A stretch of DNA of 43,391 nt from positions 1 through 43,391 of IMG/VR virus record IMGVR_UViG_3300023112_000033; one strand, given 5' to 3'. The notes beneath the pieces are model-generated. The model was not told the DNA's origin. It did no database searches and saw nothing but the letters and a program-made list of their open reading frames with translations. The position numbers were made by a program, and so were the translations under genes. Shown piece after piece: positions 7,272 to 32,893 of this stretch. Source of the stretch: a virus. The first letter of the stretch is position 1, and each line of letters starts with the position of its first letter.

Positions 7272-7550
7272 ATGATTAATACTAATTTAAGTCCAGATCA
7301 AATGTTAGATATCTGTGGCTTTGTCACAGAGCATAAGAAGACATTTCAAGAGAATAAATTGAACTTAGGTGCTATGGCTTTGTTCTGTAATACTCACTTC
7401 GATTTTGAAGTGAAAAAACATGACATAGTATTTCTATGTGAAGCAGTAAAGATTCTATTGGATCAAAGGAACCAACCAGTAATGCATGTAGCTAAAAAGA
7501 TAATTCATGATTTACAAGGTCAAATACAGGAGTTAAAAAATGAAAGTTAA
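7272..7550 (+). CDS. Hypothetical protein, 92 aa, upstream of variable cassette A
   Basis: Unknown family, mainly helical, one central segment AMALFCNTHFDFEVKKHDIV. AAGGAAA precedes the ATG. Its last ten bases overlap the start of variable cassette A, and an AGGAG within its 3' end serves that cassette. It is not the usual upstream half of a sulfatase-modifying-factor fold, which makes the position of cassette A odd. The 180 bases before it are gene-free but can fold (GGAGGGGATT near 7116 pairs imperfectly with ATTCCCTCTCC near 7151). Confidence 0.65.
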   Translation: MINTNLSPDQMLDICGFVTEHKKTFQENKLNLGAMALFCNTHFDFEVKKHDIVFLCEAVKILLDQRNQPVMHVAKKIIHDLQGQIQELKNES

Positions 7551-7714
7551 TCCAATTAATTCTAATGGCTCTGACCATGTTATCCGAGGTGGCTCGTGGT
7601 ACGACAACGTGGGCCTCGCCAGGTCTGCTCTCCGTGGCTGGTACTTGCCAGGCCTTCGTGGCGGCAACGTTGGTGTTCGCTTAGTAAGAAAAGCAAAACA
7701 AGGAAATAAATAAT
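7541..7714 (+). CDS. Free-standing variable cassette A, C-terminal part of FGE/C-type lectin fold
   Basis: A 57-residue protein that corresponds to the last section of the formylglycine-generating-enzyme (sulfatase-modifying factor) fold: the hallmark VIRGGSWYD is followed by RSALR and GVRL. The same section is encoded at 8269 with a conserved frame (MKxNPIN, GS, RGGSWYD, RSA, R, P, R) but quite different residues between, at just the surface positions that diversity-generating retroelements vary in this fold. It has its own AGGAG ribosome binding site nine bases before the ATG. The core is strikingly poor in A and rich in G+C compared with the rest of the window. No N-terminal FGE half precedes it. 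Proposed to be an alternative or stored variant of cassette B. Confidence 0.7.
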
Positions 7715-8279
7715 GAATATTCAATCTGAAATTACAGCATTACAAGAACAAATAAACTTACTTAAAGAAAAGCAAGCTAATCAAACTCAACTACCTGACT
7801 GGAATAAAGACTTCAAAGATATTCCTATCAATATACCATTTCTTATGGGTAATACAGATGAGCATCAAGCAGTTATATTAACTAAACCATATCAAATGTG
7901 TGACCACACTGTAACAGAAAAAGAATGGTCTATAGTAATGAGCACCGTATATGCTACAAGTGAGGCTGATCTACCTAAGGTGAATATCTCTTGGAATGAC
8001 TGTCAAGAGTTCATTAAAAAGTTAAATGAATCTCAGGATGAATGGGAATATTCACTCCCTACAGAAGCTGAGTGGGAATGGGCTTGTAAAGGTGGAAGTT
8101 TATTAGAACCCAAGAATATTGATGAGGTTGCTTGGCATTATCATAACTCAGATGAAAGATTACATGAAGGAAAAGAACTAAAACCTAATGGTTTTGGTTT
8201 ATATGACATGTTAGGTAATGTCTGGGAATTCTGTCAAGACTCATACACTTCTTATAAGGATGTTAAAGATGAAAACTAA
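7713..8279 (+). CDS. FGE/sulfatase-modifying-factor-like protein, N-terminal part of a split fold
   Basis: 188 residues with a short coiled-coil start (residues 4-26) and then the FGE-type C-type lectin fold: FLMGNTDEHQAVILTKPY (about 42-59), VTEKEW, ISWNDCQEFIKKLN, the signature LPTEAEWEWACKGG (about 116-129), and GLYDMLGNVWEFCQD (about 162-176). The fold normally continues into an RGGSW segment, but this frame stops after KDEN, and that segment is supplied by the next overlapping frame at 8269. The formylglycine-forming cysteines are not evident, so it is more likely a binding protein than an enzyme. Whether it acts on the virion surface or inside the cell is unknown. Confidence 0.8.
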   Translation: MNIQSEITALQEQINLLKEKQANQTQLPDWNKDFKDIPINIPFLMGNTDEHQAVILTKPYQMCDHTVTEKEWSIVMSTVYATSEADLPKVNISWNDCQEFIKKLNESQDEWEYSLPTEAEWEWACKGGSLLEPKNIDEVAWHYHNSDERLHEGKELKPNGFGLYDMLGNVWEFCQDSYTSYKDVKDEN

Positions 8280-8436
8280 CCCAATTAATACTAGCGGCTC
8301 TCGCCGTGTTAACCGAGGTGGCTCGTGGTACGACTATGCGAGCAGCAGCCGGTCAGCGTATCGTAACCTCTTCTCGCCTGACTATCGTAGCTACGGTTTA
8401 GGGTTCCGTTTGCGCAGGAGAAAGAAAAATGACTAA
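8269..8436 (+). CDS. Variable cassette B, C-terminal part of split FGE/C-type lectin fold
   Basis: 55 residues: MKTNPIN, RVNRGGSWYD, RSAYR, SPDYR, GLGFRL. This is the canonical end of the FGE fold that the upstream protein lacks. It overlaps that gene by 11 bases in another frame and has an AAGGA ribosome binding site nine bases before its ATG, inside the upstream gene. The intact SD and start, and the same arrangement at cassette A, suggest a genuine two-polypeptide protein rather than a chance frameshift. Varied codons between A and B mostly keep a pyrimidine third base (for example GGC/AGC, CTC/AGC, GGC/AAC, GGC/GAC), the footprint expected from adenine mutagenesis of AAC codons. Confidence 0.75.
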   Translation: MKTNPINTSGSRRVNRGGSWYDYASSSRSAYRNLFSPDYRSYGLGFRLRRRKKND

Positions 8437-8680
8437 AATAAATGAAGGCGTAATCAGTGAGGATGTCCAGAGAGTATTTAATGCTGTAAGTGAAACATTA
8501 GCTAAATTAGATATTAGATTACTAGAAGGTAATCTTGGGTTAATGTTAATAATAATGACTGTCTTAACAGAAGTAGGTTTGAATGAAAAACAACGCTGGA
8601 AATATATAAAAGACTTATATGATCCACTTGTTGGAGCTACAGTGGAGGAGGAATTGGATAATGAAAAGAAAGAAAAATGA
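8429..8680 (+). CDS. Hypothetical protein, 83 aa
   Basis: Unknown family. A hydrophobic central helix (LGLMLIIMTVLTEVG) is followed by a charged helix and an acidic-basic tail. It overlaps the end of cassette B by eight bases (ATGACTAA) and its own stop overlaps the next start (ATGA). It resembles the protein at 6332 in layout and may be a paralogue; both lie beside the FGE cassettes' neighbourhood. Confidence 0.65.
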   Translation: MTKINEGVISEDVQRVFNAVSETLAKLDIRLLEGNLGLMLIIMTVLTEVGLNEKQRWKYIKDLYDPLVGATVEEELDNEKKEK

Positions 8681-8820
8681 CACATGCAAGTGATGAACCA
8701 TATCCAGATAAACTCTGTGTAGTATGTCCTAACAATGACAGCACTAAACTAGATGGCTGTAAATTAGGTCTTATATTTACAGGTGACAGAGAGATGTTAC
8801 CTAGAATTCTTGGAGAGTGA
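8677..8820 (+). CDS. Small cysteine-containing protein, 47 aa
   Basis: Begins with an ATGA overlap to the previous gene. It has three cysteines in LCVVCPNNDSTKLDGCKLG, a pattern reminiscent of small phage proteins that may bind a metal, but a fourth ligand is missing. It ends three bases before the thymidylate synthase gene. Confidence 0.55.
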   Translation: MTHASDEPYPDKLCVVCPNNDSTKLDGCKLGLIFTGDREMLPRILGE

Positions 8821-8823
8821 TGA

Positions 8824-9492
8824 ATGATTAAAGTATTAAATGAAGGGCATGTACAACTCATAGATCATATGGGTAGTGATTTAGCTATAAGTAGGAATGC
8901 GAGAGTATCATACGCTGCAGAATGGAGAGCAGGTGAAGCAGATACTAAATTAATTAATTATTTATATAATGCAGGGCATAACACGCCATTTGAGGCAGTG
9001 ACATTCACATTTGATGTGAAAGCACCTATCTTTGTCTTACGCCAATGGCATAGACATAGAACCCAATCATACAATGAATTGAGTGCTCGATATAAAGAAC
9101 TTCCAGAAGAATTCTTCATACCTGAACTTGATACTATTACATTTCAGCATCCTGACAATAAACAAATGAGGACTGATGAACAGAATCCTAATGCACAGCA
9201 GATTCAAGATTTAATTGTTGGTTCAAACAAATCATCATTCATTATATACCATGAATTAATTAAACTAGGTTGTCCTAGAGAACTAGCAAGATCAATTCTA
9301 CCAGTAGGAACTTATTCACACATGTTCTGTACTCTTAACTTAAATAACTTATTTAAATTCTTACATGAGAGGTGTCATTATCATGCACAGTATGAGATCC
9401 AAGTATATGCTAACGCTATGCTTGAGTTGGTAAAACCAATAGTACCAGTGGCAATGAAATGCTTTGAAGATAACTTTGATTTTAAGAGGTAA
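8824..9492 (+). CDS. thyX: Flavin-dependent thymidylate synthase
   Basis: Makes dTMP from dUMP with FAD, NADPH and methylene-tetrahydrofolate. The 222-residue protein has the ThyX signature RHRTQSYNELSARY (from about residue 77; consensus RHRxxSxNExSxRY) and a full family length, with the second conserved block CPRELARSILPVGTYS. It works with the dUTPase at 6661. It lies in a tight run of small genes and is probably made early to middle. Confidence 0.95.
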   Translation: MIKVLNEGHVQLIDHMGSDLAISRNARVSYAAEWRAGEADTKLINYLYNAGHNTPFEAVTFTFDVKAPIFVLRQWHRHRTQSYNELSARYKELPEEFFIPELDTITFQHPDNKQMRTDEQNPNAQQIQDLIVGSNKSSFIIYHELIKLGCPRELARSILPVGTYSHMFCTLNLNNLFKFLHERCHYHAQYEIQVYANAMLELVKPIVPVAMKCFEDNFDFKR

Positions 9493-9497
9493 GACTA

Positions 9498-9722
9498 ATG
9501 GGCGATGGCACATTTGGATTAACAATAATCCTATCTATTCTATTAATAGTTACAGGTTCTTTAAATAGTGTAGAAATTAATCAGAAAGAATTAACTTCAA
9601 TAACTACTGAATGTAAGTCAGGAATATACTCAGTGGAAGTGAACCAAGGATTTAAATTTTCAAATAAAATAATACTTTCCTGTAAGGATGGTACTGAAAT
9701 TAATTTAAATGGGGGTAAATAA
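9498..9722 (+). CDS. Small membrane-anchored or secreted protein, 74 aa
   Basis: Residues 6-24 (FGLTIILSILLIVTGSLNS) form a single hydrophobic helix resembling a signal anchor; the remainder is a soluble region with two cysteines that could pair in the periplasm. No lipobox cysteine follows the helix. The stop overlaps the next start. Function unknown; superinfection exclusion is one possibility for such phage proteins, but no direct evidence exists. Confidence 0.65.
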   Translation: MGDGTFGLTIILSILLIVTGSLNSVEINQKELTSITTECKSGIYSVEVNQGFKFSNKIILSCKDGTEINLNGGK

Positions 9723-9928
9723 TGGATGACTTAGACTATATGCAAGTGAAAAGAAAGATGCTTGAAGACAGGGATAGACATATTAAAGATCAAGCAGAAG
9801 AGGTATTAGCTCTAGAGCTAGTAGTTGATGCAGCAAGAAGAGTACATATGACTAATCCTTACTCAGAGACTAATGAGAAGTTGAGGAAGAGTATTATTAA
9901 TCTAGATATCTTGAGGGGTAAATCATGA
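9722..9928 (+). CDS. Hypothetical charged helical protein, 68 aa
   Basis: Highly charged, helical, coiled-coil-like through residues about 5-45. It starts on the stop of the preceding gene (TAATGG) and ends in an ATGA overlap with the next. No family recognised. Confidence 0.65.
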   Translation: MDDLDYMQVKRKMLEDRDRHIKDQAEEVLALELVVDAARRVHMTNPYSETNEKLRKSIINLDILRGKS

Positions 9929-10416
9929 ATGCAGAAATACACCCACATAGCGAGTTATTTAATCAATATAAAGAACTATCAAAGCATGTACCTAATCCAT
10001 ATGACTATGTTGAAGTTGAACTTGACATTGGTGGTTGGGTTACGTTATCTGATACAAATAAACCAGTTTGGTATAAAGACTGTGCATATAAAATTGACCA
10101 AGAGATTCTTCATAAATATGGAATCATACCTAAACCAACATCAATGGCAGATGCTATGGAATCAGTGGTAAGGAATTCTAGTGATAAAAACCTAATATTA
10201 TATAACCACTATTACAAGAATACTCAATTCCTAGACTTTATTGATGTGTATAGAGTATTGGATCTCTTTAAAGTTACTGATCCATGTAGTCAACATGCAA
10301 TCAAAAAGTTACTCTGTGCAGGAGACAGAGGAGCCAAGGATTACAAGAAAGATATCACTGAAGCAAGAGACACATTGAATAGGCAACTAGAGATGATGGA
10401 GGAGGATGATGGATAA
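9925..10416 (+). CDS. DUF3310-like protein
   Basis: 163 residues. The second half, from about residue 90 (HYYKNTQFLDFIDVYRVLDL then HAIKKLLCAGDRGAKDY and DITEARDTLNR), resembles the DUF3310 (SaV-like) nucleotide-kinase-associated family seen in many phages, in which an AIKY.WRAG-type motif precedes a helix of a short kinase-like domain. The first half is not recognised. The biochemical role of DUF3310 is unknown. It is coupled to both neighbours by overlaps. Confidence 0.6.
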   Translation: MNAEIHPHSELFNQYKELSKHVPNPYDYVEVELDIGGWVTLSDTNKPVWYKDCAYKIDQEILHKYGIIPKPTSMADAMESVVRNSSDKNLILYNHYYKNTQFLDFIDVYRVLDLFKVTDPCSQHAIKKLLCAGDRGAKDYKKDITEARDTLNRQLEMMEEDDG

Positions 10417-15910: not shown

Positions 15911-16102
15911 ATGAGTAATACTAGAAGAGGTAATAAGCCTCCTGGACTAGATTTCTGGTCTAAATATAGGTGTAATAGACATGGTGCTTCAGGTTGTGGG
16001 AGAGTAGCTAAAGGATTAGCTAGATCTGAGCGAAGAAATACTAGTAAACATATTATTAAGGAAGAACTTAAAGATTTAATCAATTACACAGCTATTGTCT
16101 AG
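15911..16102 (+). CDS. Conserved small basic phage protein, 63 aa
   Basis: MSNTRRGNKPPGLDFWSKYR is like a small phage protein family with a GxDFWSRRP-type motif; the rest is basic (RVAKGLARSERRN). Function unknown. Its last 15 bases lie inside the tRNA-Glu gene, so the stop codon is formed by the D arm of the tRNA. Confidence 0.6.
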   Translation: MSNTRRGNKPPGLDFWSKYRCNRHGASGCGRVAKGLARSERRNTSKHIIKEELKDLINYTAIV

Positions 16103-16159
16103 TGGTTAGGGCAGATCACTTTCTATGATCTAACAGGAGTTCGATTCTTCTTAGCTGTA
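16088..16159 (+). tRNA. tRNA-Glu (anticodon UUC)
   Basis: Full cloverleaf: acceptor ACAGCTA/TAGCTGT, anticodon stem GATCA/TGATC with loop CTTTCTA (anticodon TTC, reads GAA/GAG), T arm AGGAG-TTCGATT-CTTCT. It has the GTCTAG..TAACAGGxGTTCGA pattern of bacterial tRNA-Glu. CCA is not encoded (ATCA follows). It probably supports translation of the AT-rich phage genes. Confidence 0.9.
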
Positions 16160-16298
16160 TCAAATTAGCTCTTGAGCGGATAAATGACATAAAGTGTCTT
16201 AAAACCTTTGAAGGTCTTTAGGTCGGGATATTAGAATAAAAGCCTATATCTACCCGTAATCTTTTTAAGCTAAGCCCCTTTAAACCGCCTAATTTTAA

Positions 16299-16372
16299 AG
16301 CAGTATGGTCGAATGGTTAGACATGGGACTTTGACTCCCATTACGTAGGTTCAATTCCTACTACTGCTTCCA
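16299..16372 (+). tRNA. tRNA-Gln (anticodon UUG)
   Basis: Full cloverleaf: acceptor AGCAGTA/TACTGCT, anticodon stem TGGGA/TCCCA with loop CTTTGAC (anticodon TTG, reads CAA), T arm GTAGG-TTCAATT-CCTAC, and CCA encoded at the end (16370-16372). Confidence 0.92.
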
Positions 16373-23414: not shown

Positions 23415-24902
23415 ATGAAGTATTATACTTACACAGAAGAAGTAAATGAAGCATACGTAGTAGCAGTACTAATCAAAGATACTGCATTCAAAGAAGTTAA
23501 CCTAAAGGAATACTATTTAAACCCATTAAACGAACTAGGGGTACCTAAAGAGAAGGTAATCTTTATTGGGTTAAAATATAACCCTAACGGAAAGATCTCT
23601 GCTACAGAGCAGAAGGAATATCTAGATTTAATTAAACCATATCTAGAAGAGCTACAAGTAAAACTCTTACTTGTTACTGATGGAAAGTACTTTAAAACTT
23701 TAACCAAAAAACCAAAGGTAGAACCTTACTATGGGTATAAAGTTGAATGTGCTTACAAAGGGTATGAAGAGTATACAGCAGTATTAAGTATTAACTCTGA
23801 AGCTCTATTCTATAAACCTGATTTACAAGTAAAACTAACTAAGAGTTTACATATAGTGAACTCAATCCTATGTGAAACATATGTGGATCCAGGTATACGT
23901 GAATTTGGTATTCAAGCTCTTTTTGATAGGGAATCTATCGAGAAAAAACTACTAAACTATTTAACTGAACCCATTCTTACCTGTGACATAGAAACGTCTG
24001 GTTTATCCCTTACCAACTCGATAATTTCTATCTCATTTGCTAAGAACGAAAATGAGGCCATTGCTTTCCCTATTGCAGAGGAAAACAAAGCTACATTAAG
24101 AACTTGGTTCACATTATATAAAGGTACTCTCATATTTCATAACTGTACATTTGATATAAAAATGCTTATCTACCATCTATTTATGAATGATCCGTTGGAT
24201 ATGGAAGGTCTAATTGATGGATTAGAGGTAATGTTCAGATCCATAGAAGATACTAAATTAATCATTTATTTAGCTACCAATAATACTGCAGGTAATAACC
24301 TAAAACTAAAAGATAACAGTGCAGATTTCCTAGGTAACTATGGATTGATTAATTCAGATACAGATGTAACTAACATTCCTATGGATCAATTACTTGAATA
24401 TAACGCTAAGGACTGTCTAGCTACTTGGTATGTCTATAACAAGTTTAAACCAATGATGATTGCTGATGAACAGGAGAACCTATACAAGGAAATATTTATT
24501 CCAAGTGCAAAAGTTATTTGCCACATGGAACTTATAGGTATGCCTATGGATATGGATCAAGTACAACATGCTAAATCCTATCTAGAAGATATCATTGCTA
24601 AGCAGTATCAAATATTTAATAAATCTAGAATCATAAAGAAGTTTACTTGGGAGCTGAACAGATTGGAAATGATCAAAGCTAACGCTAAATTGAAATCTAA
24701 GGTTAAATCTATTATGGACTTTGATGTGGAATATAACCCTAACTCAGGTAACCATAACCAAAATCTAATCTATGATTTCATGGGTAATGAAGTAATAGAC
24801 ACTACTGATTCAGGATTGCCCGCTACAGGTAAGGAAACGCTAGAGAAGGTACTTAATAAACTCATCCATGAACATGGAATAACAGAAGACGAACTTAAAT
24901 AA
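23415..24902 (+). CDS. DNA polymerase family A, exonuclease and thumb part (split gene)
   Basis: 495 residues. The 3'-5' proofreading exonuclease motifs are visible: DIETSGL (about 191), NCTFDIKML (about 242) and YNAKDCLATWYV (about 328). The frame continues into the thumb (PATGKETLEKVL) and then stops; the palm and fingers are encoded separately at 25497. N4-like polymerases are normally one chain of about 850 residues. Here the break falls in a loop-helix of the thumb and no sequence seems to be lost, so two polypeptides probably assemble into a working enzyme. It starts immediately after the helicase stop. Confidence 0.88.
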   Translation: MKYYTYTEEVNEAYVVAVLIKDTAFKEVNLKEYYLNPLNELGVPKEKVIFIGLKYNPNGKISATEQKEYLDLIKPYLEELQVKLLLVTDGKYFKTLTKKPKVEPYYGYKVECAYKGYEEYTAVLSINSEALFYKPDLQVKLTKSLHIVNSILCETYVDPGIREFGIQALFDRESIEKKLLNYLTEPILTCDIETSGLSLTNSIISISFAKNENEAIAFPIAEENKATLRTWFTLYKGTLIFHNCTFDIKMLIYHLFMNDPLDMEGLIDGLEVMFRSIEDTKLIIYLATNNTAGNNLKLKDNSADFLGNYGLINSDTDVTNIPMDQLLEYNAKDCLATWYVYNKFKPMMIADEQENLYKEIFIPSAKVICHMELIGMPMDMDQVQHAKSYLEDIIAKQYQIFNKSRIIKKFTWELNRLEMIKANAKLKSKVKSIMDFDVEYNPNSGNHNQNLIYDFMGNEVIDTTDSGLPATGKETLEKVLNKLIHEHGITEDELK

Positions 24903-24915
24903 AAAGGAAATAACA

Positions 24916-25497
24916 ATGTCATTATTACTAAGAAAAGCAACACAAGATTTATTAATTAAATTTAATTTAGGAGAATATCATATAGATATTAATCAAGAGT
25001 TAGATATGGTTATTGTAGGAGAATGCGGCAACTATTTATGTACAGTTAAAGGTGTAACTTTTAGTAGAAAATCTCCTACAAAAGCTGAAATAAATTTTGC
25101 TGTAGAATTACTTAACAAATTTCTAACTACACATAAATCTAAAATAAACAAAGTTATCTCAACTAAAGCAGATTGGAAACTTAATTCCCCAAATGAAAAT
25201 TTATGGTCAGGGAACAAAATCAGACAAATTGACACTGATGAGCAGTCTATTAGTGTTTACTTCAAAAAAGGATTAGATTCTAGAGTAATTTTCTATAAAA
25301 AAGACCTAACATTAATTAAAGTATACTTACCTGGTTATGGTAGTGAATCAATTAATGTAGCTGACTTAAATACATTCCTTAAGGGTAAAAAGATGCAGAA
25401 TAAATATTTACACATTTTGGATCAAAAATTAATTGAGGATGACTTACATAAAAAATACAATGCTGCAATAAACGCACTTAATACCTGTGCTATCTAA
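24916..25497 (+). CDS. Protein of unknown function inserted in the split DNA polymerase gene
   Basis: 193 residues between the two DNA polymerase halves, with its own AAAGGAAA ribosome binding site. No HNH, GIY-YIG or LAGLIDADG motif is visible and it is not an intein, since both polymerase parts have their own stop and start. Its sequence is lysine-rich with beta-like stretches (MVIVGECGNYLCTVKGVTF). Its stop overlaps the start of the palm part (TAATG). In T4-like phages split polymerase genes contain homing endonucleases; this could be an unfamiliar or decayed one, or a polymerase-associated protein. Confidence 0.65.
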   Translation: MSLLLRKATQDLLIKFNLGEYHIDINQELDMVIVGECGNYLCTVKGVTFSRKSPTKAEINFAVELLNKFLTTHKSKINKVISTKADWKLNSPNENLWSGNKIRQIDTDEQSISVYFKKGLDSRVIFYKKDLTLIKVYLPGYGSESINVADLNTFLKGKKMQNKYLHILDQKLIEDDLHKKYNAAINALNTCAI

Positions 25498-26627
25498 TGA
25501 ATAGATCTGAAGCCATAGAACAGGCAAGGATTATTAAAGCTCTAATTACTCTTACTGAAGTATCTAAGATTACAGGTACTTTCATTAAAGCATTTGAAGA
25601 GAAGTCATTTACTAAGGAAGATGGTATTAACTATCTTCATGGAAACTTTAACTCAGGAGGAACCAAATCAGGAAGACTATCCAGTTCATCACCGAATTTA
25701 CAAAATATCCCTAGTACTGGTAACCCACACTCTAAAATAGTAAAGAAATGCTTTAAGCCACCTAGTGGCTGGCTCTTTGTGGGAGCAGATTTTAGTTCTT
25801 TAGAAGCTAAAATTGGTGCTTTATTAACAAAAGATCCTGCTAAATTAGGTATATACACTGAAGGCTACGATATGCACTCATTCAATGCTTTTGGGTATTG
25901 GGGGGATAAAATGCCTGATATACAATTAGAATTAACTAAGGCTAATTCAATTAAAGAAAGGGTGTATATAATTAACTCAATTAAAGATAAATACCCTGAA
26001 TTTCGACAAGCATCAAAAACAATAACCTTTGCTGCACAATACGGGGGAAGTTATAAGACATTTATGGATTCAGGTTTTTCAATGGAAGAAGCTAAACAAA
26101 TTGAAGCTAACTACAACAAACTATACGAAACATCTATTACTTGGGCAGAAGATAAAATTAAACAAGCTAGTAAAGATGGGTTTGTGACCTGTGCTTTTGG
26201 ATTGAAGTTAAGAACACCAATTATAGGTCAAGTAGTTATGGGTACGTCTAGCACACCTTATGAAGCTTTAGCAGAAGCCAGAACAGCTGGGAATGCTATG
26301 CAACAAGGGTATGGATTACTTAATAATAGATCAGCAATAGAGTTCCAAGAACTGCTATTAAACAGTGAATTCAGGTATAATATTAAGCCTAGTTGTCATA
26401 TACATGATGCACAATATTTCCTTGTAAAGGAAGACGTAGATACCATTCATTGGTTAAACCAAAACCTAATTAAATGTATGTCTTGGCAAGAACTACCTGA
26501 ACTAAAGCATGATCAAGTAAAGCTAGGAGCAGAGTTAGATCTGTTCATACCTGACTGGTCAGAACACATAACACTCCCCAATGGGGCAACTAAAGAACAA
26601 ATAGGAGATATATTAAATGAGAAGTGA
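25497..26627 (+). CDS. DNA polymerase family A, palm and fingers part (split gene)
   Basis: 376 residues holding the catalytic core: GGTKSGRLSSSSPNLQNIPS (about 52-71), motif A VGADFSSLEAKIGAL (aspartate at about 97, metal ligand), motif B RQASKTITFAAQYGGSY (about 170-186), and motif C CHIHDAQYFLV (aspartate at about 303, metal ligand). It lacks the exonuclease, encoded at 23415. Its start overlaps the stop of the inserted gene, so its synthesis is probably coupled to it. The split separates proofreading from synthesis onto two chains. Confidence 0.9.
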   Translation: MNRSEAIEQARIIKALITLTEVSKITGTFIKAFEEKSFTKEDGINYLHGNFNSGGTKSGRLSSSSPNLQNIPSTGNPHSKIVKKCFKPPSGWLFVGADFSSLEAKIGALLTKDPAKLGIYTEGYDMHSFNAFGYWGDKMPDIQLELTKANSIKERVYIINSIKDKYPEFRQASKTITFAAQYGGSYKTFMDSGFSMEEAKQIEANYNKLYETSITWAEDKIKQASKDGFVTCAFGLKLRTPIIGQVVMGTSSTPYEALAEARTAGNAMQQGYGLLNNRSAIEFQELLLNSEFRYNIKPSCHIHDAQYFLVKEDVDTIHWLNQNLIKCMSWQELPELKHDQVKLGAELDLFIPDWSEHITLPNGATKEQIGDILNEK

Positions 26628-29234: not shown

Positions 29235-31382
29235 ATGAGAGATTTAGACTCGATAGAACATTTTGATACCTTAGAGGAAATAACCCAAATATTGATGGCT
29301 AAGACTCAAAATGATAATCCTCTGTTCTTTAGAATATTGACCGCTTATTACTTCTCCAAGATAGCAAGTATGATGAGAACCAATATTAAAACACATGATA
29401 GAGGTACAATACCTGTAAGCCTATATGCCATAAACTTAAGTGTTTCTGGTACAGGTAAGGGACATAGTACTAATATCATGGAAGAGCAAGTTATCCATAA
29501 ATTTAAAAAGAATTTCTTAAATAATACTTTTGAGGAAGTAGCTAAGAAGAACCTAGCTAAACTAGCTAATTTTAGAGCTACTAAATATGCTGATGATCCA
29601 GATGAGACTTTAGAACGGGTAGAGAAAGAATTCGATCTACTTGGGCCACTATTATTTTCATTTGATTCAGGTACTACTCCAGCAGTTAAACAGATGAGGC
29701 ATAAATTACTTATGGCTAATGCTGGATCAATGAATTTTGAATGTGATGAGATTGGTAATAATATAGCTAGTATTAATGAATTACTAACTACCTTCCTTGA
29801 ATTATATGATGTAGGTAAAGTTAAACAAAAGCTAATTAAGAATACAACTGAAAACAGACGTAATGAGGAAATTGAAGGCAAGACACCTACTAATATGCTT
29901 CTATTTGGTACACCTAACAAGGTATTAAATGGATCCAAAGAGGAAGAAACTTTCATTTCAATGTTAGATACTGGATATGCTAGAAGATGTTTATTTGGAT
30001 TACAGACTAAGTCTAATGGATTCAAAGATATGTCTGCTTCAGATCTATATGACATTATGACTGATACTTCATCAGTTGATTACCTAGATGCAATATCAAA
30101 TCACTTTGGTAACCTTGCAGATATACTCAATTTCAATATAACACTAACCATGACAAAAGATGTTAGCTTACATATTATTGAATATAAAACCCATTGTACC
30201 AAAATAGCTTATGATCTAGGAGATCATGAAGACATCCTTAGAACAGAGATTGAACACAGGTATTACAAAGCACTAAAACTTGCAGGAGCATTTGCTTTCA
30301 TAAATGGTGATCATGAAATAACTGAAGACATCCTCTATTCAGCAATCAAGTTAGTTGAAGAATCTGGTAAAGCATTTGAAAGTATTCTTTCCAGAGACAG
30401 AAACTATGTCAAATTAGCCAAGTACATAGGAGGAAACAAGGGAGAACTTACCCAAGTTGATCTAACTGAAGACTTACCTTTTTATAAGGGAGGAGAAGCT
30501 CAGAAGAGAGACTTAATGAACCTTGCAGTAGCATGGGGTTACAAGAACAATGTAGTCATTCGTAGGGCATTCAGAGATGGAATAGAAATGCTCCAAGGAG
30601 ATTGCTTAGAAGAAACTAATATAGATAAAGTTATAATATCTTATAGTCAGGAATTAGCTGCAGGATATCAACCTGATGTAGCACCATTCAAGGACTTACA
30701 TAAATTAACAACTTTATCTGGTTACCACTATACGGCACACCACTTCATAGATAATTACAGATCCAGTATTAAAGCAATTCCAGGATTCAATCTATTAATC
30801 TTAGATGTGGATTCAGGTATTTCTATGGATACAGCTAAAGATCTTTTATCTGAATATATGGCTCTATTTGCCACAACTAAAAGACATACACCTGATAACC
30901 ATAGATTTAGAATTATTATGCCTTTATCTCATACTCTCAAACTAGTACCAGAAAACTACTCTAAATTCATGATGAATGTATTCAACTGGTTACCATTTGA
31001 AGTAGATGAAGCAACTAAAGACATAAGTCGTAAATGGATGGCATATTCAGGTACATACGATTATCAGGATGGGAAACTGCTTAATGCATTAACCTTTATA
31101 CCTGAGACAAGTAAAGAAGAGGAATATAAGAAGCTTATCTCTGATACCAGTAATTTAAATAACCTAGAGAGATGGTTCTATACAAATACTGATAACGGGA
31201 ATAGAAGTAACCAAATGATTAAATATGCATATGCATTAGTAGACAAAGGTCTAGCACTCGAAGATATCAAGAATGCTCTATATTCGTTTAATCATAAAAT
31301 CAAAGATGGTCTTACTGAAACTGAGATCAATTCAACAATTTTAATATCAACAGCTAAATCAATAGCAAAGAGAGATGCATGA
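29235..31382 (+). CDS. Replication protein: DUF3987-like ATPase fused to primase-like domain
   Basis: 715 residues, in the N4 gp43 position. The N-terminal half is a P-loop ATPase: VSGTGKGHS (70-78) and a Walker B FECDEIGN (168-175), as in DUF3987-type phage proteins. The C-terminal third has LLILDVDSGIS (about 518-528) and HTPDNHRFRIIMPL (about 549-562), which fit the DxD and RxxxPL strands of archaeo-eukaryotic primase-type domains. The combination would join strand opening and primer synthesis in one chain. Its stop overlaps the start of the next gene (ATGA). The primase call is from motifs only. Confidence 0.7.
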   Translation: MRDLDSIEHFDTLEEITQILMAKTQNDNPLFFRILTAYYFSKIASMMRTNIKTHDRGTIPVSLYAINLSVSGTGKGHSTNIMEEQVIHKFKKNFLNNTFEEVAKKNLAKLANFRATKYADDPDETLERVEKEFDLLGPLLFSFDSGTTPAVKQMRHKLLMANAGSMNFECDEIGNNIASINELLTTFLELYDVGKVKQKLIKNTTENRRNEEIEGKTPTNMLLFGTPNKVLNGSKEEETFISMLDTGYARRCLFGLQTKSNGFKDMSASDLYDIMTDTSSVDYLDAISNHFGNLADILNFNITLTMTKDVSLHIIEYKTHCTKIAYDLGDHEDILRTEIEHRYYKALKLAGAFAFINGDHEITEDILYSAIKLVEESGKAFESILSRDRNYVKLAKYIGGNKGELTQVDLTEDLPFYKGGEAQKRDLMNLAVAWGYKNNVVIRRAFRDGIEMLQGDCLEETNIDKVIISYSQELAAGYQPDVAPFKDLHKLTTLSGYHYTAHHFIDNYRSSIKAIPGFNLLILDVDSGISMDTAKDLLSEYMALFATTKRHTPDNHRFRIIMPLSHTLKLVPENYSKFMMNVFNWLPFEVDEATKDISRKWMAYSGTYDYQDGKLLNALTFIPETSKEEEYKKLISDTSNLNNLERWFYTNTDNGNRSNQMIKYAYALVDKGLALEDIKNALYSFNHKIKDGLTETEINSTILISTAKSIAKRDA

Positions 31383-32893
31383 ATAATAATTTATTACTAA
31401 TAGCAGGTAAGTCTGCTACAGGCAAGTCTGCCTCACTCATGAACTTAGAGAATCCAGAAGGAGTAATGTACTTAGGTTGTGAGAACAACAAATCCTTACC
31501 CTTCCCAAGTAAATTTCAAGAGTTTAACATTACTGATCCATTACAAGTATACGAAGCATTTGAGGTTGCAGAAACCAAAGATAATATCCATACAATAGTA
31601 ATTGATACCCTTACTTACTTAATGGATATGTATGAATCCATGCATGTACTTACTTCAAGCAATACGATGAAAGCCTTAAGTGTAAGGGCAGTTCACTAGA
31701 AATGGTGTTCTAAAGAAACCAATTGAATTCAGGGAAACTCTAAGGGAGAAATCCTAAGACAATCCTGAGCGAAGATTGACAATACCCCAGCTATATAATA
31801 CAATATTGTATTTTAAGTTTAGGGGAATATGATGAATAAGAAAAGATATGGTAATGAATTACATCCTTTATACACACGCTGGTTAAGTATGAACCAACGC
31901 TGTAATAATCCTAATCATAAGCAGTATAGAGATTGGGGTGGTAGAGGAATTTGTATTTCAAACGAGTTAAAAAAATTTAATGATTATGTAAGTATAGTTG
32001 AAAATTTACCTAATTATTCTCTTGATAATTCATTAGACAGAATTGATAACAACAAAGATTATTCAAAAGATAATTTACGTTGGACTAGTAGTAATACACA
32101 AGTAGCAAATCAAAGACCTAATTCCAGAGGTTTTAACAAATATACTGGAGTAGGTTGGAGTAAAGCCCATAATAGATGGGTTGCTAGAGTATCTTATAAA
32201 GGTAAAGTTTTACTCAGTAAAGTAACCTTAACTGAAGAAGAAGCTTTAACTGCTAGGAATCAATTTATCATTGATAATGATTTACCTCATCCTATCCAAA
32301 CATATTGTCAATAACGTGCAACGACTATCCTGAGAAGGAGTACACTCAAGTGAGTGGAAGCGGTTGGTACCTAAACAAGTAGAGTTGTAGGTAAAGATAT
32401 AGTCTAGCCTTATATGAAAATATAAGAAGTTCATAAGAGAACTGATATGGTTTAACGAACCATATTGAATATAAGCGGGGGCGGCTATGCTCAATTCTTT
32501 AAGAAGTTAATGCAAACCTATGTAGCTAACTCTACCAAGAACATTATATTCCTAGCCCATACATTAGATGTGATGAATGAAGCAGAGATGATCTCTGAAA
32601 CCTTAGTTAAGGTTAAAGGTTCATTGATGAATAATGGTATTGAGAGTGCATTCTGTACTGTTATTGGATCCAAGAAAGTAGCTATCAAGAAATTGAAAGA
32701 TACTAATTCAATGCTAAACATAACTGAGGAGGAAGAGCTACTGGGGTACAAACATGTATTTCAAACTAAACTAACGAAAGAAACAGTTAATGAAAGACTC
32801 CGAAGTCCTATAGGAATGTGGACTAAAGACGAAACATTTATCAACAATGACGTTCAATTAGTTTTGAACCGACTACATACATTTTATAATTAA
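31379..32893 (+). CDS. RecA-fold ATPase of the replication set, interrupted by a group I intron
   Basis: Exon 1 spans 31379-31676 and exon 2 spans 32478-32893; joined they encode 237 residues. Exon 1 has Walker A AGKSATGKSAS (9-19) and Walker B HTIVIDTLTYL; exon 2 has NIIFLAHTLD. Joining the T at 31676 to GG at 32478 creates a tryptophan codon and reads KAWGGYAQFFKKLM, the sequence expected for the family. Without splicing, exon 1 runs into a stop after 106 residues. In N4-like phages this ATPase (N4 gp44 position) precedes the SSB gene. The 3' exon has no start of its own; a TTG at 32465 lies inside the intron and is not genuine. Confidence 0.85.
31677..32477 (+). ncRNA. Group I self-splicing intron, td-like
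   Basis: 801 bases. The 5' exon ends AGCCT, whose GCCU pairs with GGGC in the intron start (P1 with the required U.G pair), and the last intron base is G. Conserved core: GCAACGACTATCC near 32318 with GACTAT (32323-32328) pairing ATAGTC (32399-32404) as P7, P8 hairpin CACTC-AAGT-GAGTG, and AGATATAGTCT, all close to the T4 td intron. An AATCCTGAGCGAAGATT-type P4-P6 segment is near 31770. The HNH gene lies in a peripheral loop. Terminal hairpins (ATATGGTT/AACCATAT near 32446) form P9 extensions. Confidence 0.92.
31829..32314 (+). CDS. HNH homing endonuclease with AP2-type DNA-binding domain
   Basis: 161 residues encoded inside the group I intron, with AGGGGAA ahead of the ATG. The nuclease part has RCNNPNHKQYRDWGGRGI and LDNSLDRIDNNKDYSKDNLR (HNH-like with the N-DR-D-N signature); the C-terminal part KYTGVGWSKAHNRWVARVSY fits an AP2 domain. 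Such enzymes cut intronless alleles and so spread the intron. The stop lies at the edge of the conserved intron 3' core. Confidence 0.88.
   Translation: MMNKKRYGNELHPLYTRWLSMNQRCNNPNHKQYRDWGGRGICISNELKKFNDYVSIVENLPNYSLDNSLDRIDNNKDYSKDNLRWTSSNTQVANQRPNSRGFNKYTGVGWSKAHNRWVARVSYKGKVLLSKVTLTEEEALTARNQFIIDNDLPHPIQTYCQ

Follow-up and report, generated by a model that had tools for sequence, protein, structure and literature searches.

The DNA analysed here, referred to as the window, is the 43,391-bp virus record IMGVR_UViG_3300023112_000033, a genome fragment with an overall GC content of 33.4% and ORFs truncated at both ends. Five overlapping genes form a tight operon (successive overlaps of 11, 1, 11 and 8 nt) that encodes the constant N-terminal half of a formylglycine-generating enzyme (FGE)/C-type lectin (CLec) domain, termed FGE-N, together with two small cassettes carrying its variable C-terminal half (Table 1). 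The operon is flanked by a dUTPase-like gene and a ThyX-like gene, both named by eye from the sequence, and lies in a non-structural region where a tail-fibre context is absent. No FGE gene adjoins ThyX in the ThyX neighbourhoods examined. Judged from the gene for its second RNA polymerase subunit (RNAP2) and its DNA polymerase, which share ~39-40% identity with N4-like phages (Schitoviridae), the window phage appears N4-like. Hallmarks of this family are a two-subunit RNA polymerase, an N4-type DNA polymerase and gene order, and a giant virion RNA polymerase; a 665-residue piece of the window's giant minus-strand ORF has no Pfam match. Searches for a close relative of the window phage, including one with RNAP2, found none.

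Table 1. Coordinates of the split FGE/CLec locus and of the FGE genes compared with it
Feature	Position	Strand	Description
Upstream gene	7272..7550	+	92 aa, no family; TAA falls among the first codons of cassette A, which it overlaps by 11 nt
Cassette A	7540..7713	+	57 aa, variable C-terminal half of FGE/CLec domain; own ATG and SD-like stretch
Cassette A variable-region core (RGGSW...GVRLV)	7585..7689	+	~61% GC
FGE-N	7713..8279	+	188 aa, constant N-terminal half: N-terminal helix and FGE/CLec domain to GNVWEFCQD; no in-frame RGGSW
FGE-N/cassette B junction	8256..8279	+	SD-like AAGGA; cassette B ATG 8269 (+1 frame); FGE-N TAA 8277-8279; 11-nt overlap
Cassette B	8269..8436	+	55 aa, variable C-terminal half; presumed physical partner of FGE-N
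Cassette B variable-region core (RGGSW...GFRLR)	8314..8418	+	~57% GC
Downstream gene	8429..8680	+	83 aa, no family; overlaps cassette B by 8 nt; in the same operon
L141 FGE N-half	9911-10399		Terminates in a stop
L141 partner cassette			RGGSWYDDMQYLRAAYRD...; +1 frame relative to N-half, start overlapping
L141 free-standing cassette gene	8740-8979		1.7 kb upstream
FGE gene of Microcystis phages LMM01, MaMV-DC, -CH01, -CH02, -DL01, -DL02, -DH01 (L259-L265)	from 2959		

Elsewhere in the window, an AAA_24 (RecA-like) gene (31379-32893) has a stop at 31699, followed by an HNH-type homing-endonuclease-like ORF (31829-32314; named by eye, no Pfam match) and a possible remainder of the gene at 32465-32893; Rfam matched no intron across 31379-32893. 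The family A DNA polymerase (23415-26627) occupies two ORFs, an exonuclease part (23415-24902) and a polymerase part (25497-26627), with an unknown 193-aa ORF between them (24916-25497). Neighbouring tRNA genes for Glu(TTC) and Gln(TTG) lie at 16088-16372.

The first-pass annotation described the RGGSW-containing C-terminal section of the fold as two separate small genes, and the profile matches bear this out. PF03781 (FGE-sulfatase) is divided exactly between genes: FGE-N covers positions 70-196 (E 1.8e-20), while cassette A covers 206-255 (E 4.7e-6) and cassette B 207-253 (E 5.6e-5), ~50 residues in each case. The locus is thus a split FGE/CLec gene set with one constant-half gene and two cassette genes. 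The earlier coordinates hold for cassette B and FGE-N, and those of cassette A (7541-7714) are shifted by one base. Other elements of that description also stand: the MKxNPIN starts, RGGSWYD and RSA are common to both cassettes, as is an R-P-R spacing; each cassette has its own Shine-Dalgarno (SD)-like stretch (AGGAG 7 nt 5' of the ATG of A, AAGGA 8 nt 5' of that of B); and only cassette B is preceded by an FGE N-half. At the nucleotide level, the 15-mer CGAGGTGGCTCGTGG occurs at exactly two sites in the window at <=3 mismatches (0.04 expected by chance), and cassettes A and B have the 21-base stretch CGAGGTGGCTCGTGGTACGAC in common. Cassette A was considered as a template repeat (TR) and rejected, as it does not have the AAY-rich make-up of one. 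A scan of IMG/VR with a free-standing cassette pattern gave six matches, none of them relevant, and exact and degenerate DNA searches for a cassette or template gave no related match.

FGE-N and cassette B together are predicted to make up one complete FGE/CLec domain. For analysis, a composite was translated across the join by reading the four-letter word TATA as one residue. Over residues 43-235 it matches contiguous FGE-family proteins of bacteria and phages, with 35-47% identity among the best bacterial matches, which cross the junction in one frame, and up to 47% among viral ones. AlphaFold2 models the composite with high confidence (53 homologues; pLDDT 93.2, pTM 0.86), the cassette contributing strands 198-201, 217-220 and 234-237. 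The closest solved structure is TvpA, the diversity-generating retroelement (DGR) variable protein of Treponema denticola (PDB 2Y3C), both by sequence (E 7e-63 with a profile, E 9e-19 with a single sequence) and by fold (E 5e-18). The composite combines a CLec/FGE fold with a variable region at its C-terminal end, as DGR variable proteins do. The earlier reading, an FGE/CLec fold divided between a constant half and a separately encoded variable half, is supported. The formylglycine-generating enzyme itself carries a catalytic cysteine pair in its C-terminal section. An enzymatic FGE was rejected here: this section aligns to YDYASSSRSA, and with no cysteine in either cassette the protein is not expected to act as an FGE.

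A similar arrangement is found in L141 (IMGVR_UViG_3300044981_000086), a 38.8-kb podophage-like contig with terminase and portal genes recognised by eye and unrelated to the window phage. Like the window, it has an N-half ending in a stop, a cassette in the +1 frame, an extra free-standing cassette gene, and neither a reverse transcriptase (RT) nor a TR found on the contig. In contrast to those of the window, its two cassettes seem to have been copied recently from a single template: they differ at 12 codons, by 9, 9 and 0 changes at positions 1, 2 and 3, so that the third base is kept in 12/12 (permutation p=0.0002), and their 3' ends are identical, the only two copies of this 3' end in the contig. 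An ERF-like single-strand-annealing recombinase gene (8976-9548, named by eye) lies directly 3' of the free-standing cassette. L102 carries an FGE gene related to that of L141 in which the domain is unsplit and the C-terminal tail resembles that of the L141 free cassette. A screen of N-halves in the collected viral and bacterial loci covered 187 cases; L141 was the one split case, 166 were contiguous and 20 had no RGGSW within 400 nt. The FGE genes of the Microcystis phages, Mic1, ctSAF950 and MT836415 are likewise contiguous and unsplit. Other free RGGSW pieces in relatives (L118, L119, L123, L124, L185, L187 and L235) were rejected as cassettes because they appear to be template repeats and not genes.

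The recurrence in L141 bears on whether the split is real. The window is a single metagenomic contig, a one-base shift at the FGE-N/B join would make the domain continuous, and the great majority of screened N-halves are contiguous, all of which would fit a full-length FGE gene disrupted by an indel or by a sequencing or assembly error, with cassette A the leftover of a second copy. This explanation is nevertheless unlikely. An unrelated phage shares both the split and an extra free-standing cassette, which makes the one-base sequencing error named in the first-pass annotation as its refutation improbable; the junctions of A and B are also alike in their 11-nt overlap and SD-like stretch, and both cassettes are intact within a tight operon.

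Programmed +1 frameshifting or a stop-codon hop could instead fuse FGE-N to B, with A perhaps joined likewise to its upstream protein. All four cassettes, two in the window and two in L141, overlap the preceding gene in its +1 frame; homologues are contiguous across the join, and a +1 product would equally yield the full domain. Several features make such a fusion quite improbable, however. Firstly, no slippery site is recognisable by eye, and the cassettes all carry an ATG and an SD-like stretch of their own. Secondly, the ATGs of A and B each overlap the preceding TAA by exactly 11 nt (ATGAAAGTTAA and ATGAAAACTAA), and since further genes of the window phage overlap by 8, 11 or 14 nt as well, the cassette junctions match the usual style of this genome. 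Finally, fusion would make no evident sense for the two cassettes that are preceded by non-FGE genes.

The differences between the cassettes carry a DGR-type codon signature, which the first-pass annotation did not mention, nor did it mention the jump in GC content. Amino-acid-changing codons of A and B differ by 17, 19 and 8 at positions 1, 2 and 3, and conserved codons by 1, 0 and 8. Within codons 12-43, the third base is unchanged in 14/18 amino-acid-changing codons, where genome codon usage would predict 6.3 (p=0.00015) and permutation 8.8 (p=0.002), whereas the N-half control (window versus L141) keeps the third base in 25/68 with 24.4 expected (p=0.48). At template-Asn sites, 18/24 cassette codons end in C, a level reached in 0/20,000 simulations. 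Distant relatives carry template repeats, such as RGGSWNNNARNCRSANRNNNSPGNRNNNLGFRL of L235, in which the RSA codons are CGGTCAGCG, the same as in cassette B. Compared with four such TRs, the cassettes mismatch preferentially at template adenines (Fisher p 0.0002-0.014), an enrichment at NNY codons that falls short of strict confinement. Against the L235 TR, cassette A mismatches at 21/29 adenines and 22/70 other positions (p 0.0002), and cassette B at 17/29 and 17/70 (p 0.0013). The proposal that the variable region is of DGR type is thus upheld by third-base conservation in changed codons and by mismatches at the adenines of relatives' templates. Because third positions also differ in 8/26 conserved codons, A and B are not fresh copies of a single template. 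Phage FGE genes of other loci (L102, L103, L104, L110, L121, L128, L136, L144 and others) are mostly C/T-ending at 12 template-Asn sites, most of them at 11-12 of the 12, and the majority of their contigs have no RT.

The same divergence argues against a role of cassette A chiefly as a DNA donor, recombined into B to alter its variable half, with the A protein irrelevant. The shared 21-base stretch and the ERF-like recombinase gene beside the L141 free cassette would suit such a role, which is nonetheless very doubtful: outside that stretch, A and B are divergent even at third positions of conserved codons, and A retains a start, an SD-like stretch and an open frame.

An RT and a template repeat, for which the first-pass annotation had proposed a search of the rest of the genome, did not turn up: the 43,391-bp fragment contains no PF00078 match and no template repeat, which for a DGR target should be identical to it at every non-A position. 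As a fragment with no RT, the locus is not classed as a complete DGR. Among viral records with related FGE genes, most of them fragments, an RT is present in 6/47 of the first set and 0/19 of a further one. None was found in nine phage-collection records, all recorded as complete (the seven Microcystis phages, Mic1 and ctSAF950), and a template search of 198 genomes from the phylum to which L235 belongs gave no match. The FGE genes of MaMV-DC and MaMV-CH01 differ at 16/25 codons in the variable region (12, 11 and 4 changes at positions 1, 2 and 3), compared with 15/143 before it (~10%) and 5/72 after it (~7%). Diversification in trans could account for this pattern, as could variable regions being captured repeatedly, a single comparison being no proof of either. 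In bacteria, remote targets have been suggested to be diversified in trans (PMC10907252, PMC7517822), and Roux et al. 2021 note of remote targets as a whole that RT-based surveys miss them (PMC8144416).

Taken together, we favour a two-polypeptide FGE/CLec variable protein of DGR type, with a probability only somewhat better than even (roughly 0.55). A single domain would be divided over two polypeptides, with FGE-N as the constant part. Cassette B would be translated from its own ATG, coupled to termination of FGE-N, and would contribute the variable binding surface along with the final strands. Cassette A would be a second version of the variable part in the same operon and could stand in for B as the complement of FGE-N. 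The earlier view of A as an alternative or stored variant holds in that A is a second version of the variable half; a stored or in-use status does not follow from it. The differences between A and B would stem from mutagenic reverse transcription of template repeats, directed at adenines and converting AAY to NNY codons, with the template and RT located in the part of the genome absent from the contig or, acting in trans, elsewhere, such as in the host. A broader reading, which we offer tentatively, is that phages carry stand-alone, swappable half-domain CLec variable subunits diversified in trans by a host DGR, one constant chain serving several variable chains.

As to function, FGE-N begins with a helix and shows no obvious signal sequence by eye; given this and the non-structural gene neighbourhood, an intracellular binding role appears at least as likely as host receptor binding. 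An anti-defence role is conceivable, since CLec/FGE domains diversified by DGRs have been put forward as sensors of antigens in conflict systems of bacteria (PMC10907252). In one version, the cassettes would have been captured from host DGR targets and would act as a decoy or blocker of such sensors in anti-phage systems. This is compatible with the split two-chain reading and would be an alternative for origin and purpose only. The GC content of the cassette cores (57-61% versus 33.4% for the genome) and their codons are foreign to the phage, and the dUTPase-like and ThyX-like genes nearby place the FGE gene in a non-structural region, both of which would fit this version. The idea is purely inferential, however, and the 198 genomes, all of one phylum, yielded no matching host template, which leaves it rather improbable.

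If the variable half is indeed its own gene in two copies, the locus would represent a combinatorial format of one constant chain and several variable chains. Likewise, RT-based surveys would overlook such targets should phages rely on a host DGR acting in trans. The wider question is posed by the RT-less Microcystis phage genomes, recorded as complete, whose FGE gene has a hypervariable region with DGR-like codons. Known DGR targets are, to our knowledge, single proteins that include their variable region, and a search of open-access papers, mostly at the level of abstracts, gave no title or abstract describing a split one. TvpA shares the FGE-type CLec domain and the variable C-terminal RGGSW...GFRL section but is one contiguous polypeptide, whereas the window has a separate variable-half gene, in two copies. 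Phage DGRs of the BPP-1 type share the mutagenesis signature at template adenines and a CLec coding sequence whose 3' end is the variable region; unlike these, the window contig has no RT or TR, and its target is split, is no tail fibre and lies in a non-structural region. The remote bacterial targets for which trans diversification is proposed, as sketched in PMC10907252 and PMC7517822, are likewise CLec/FGE variable proteins distant from an RT, but they are intact domains in host genomes, whereas those of the window are half-domain genes on a phage.
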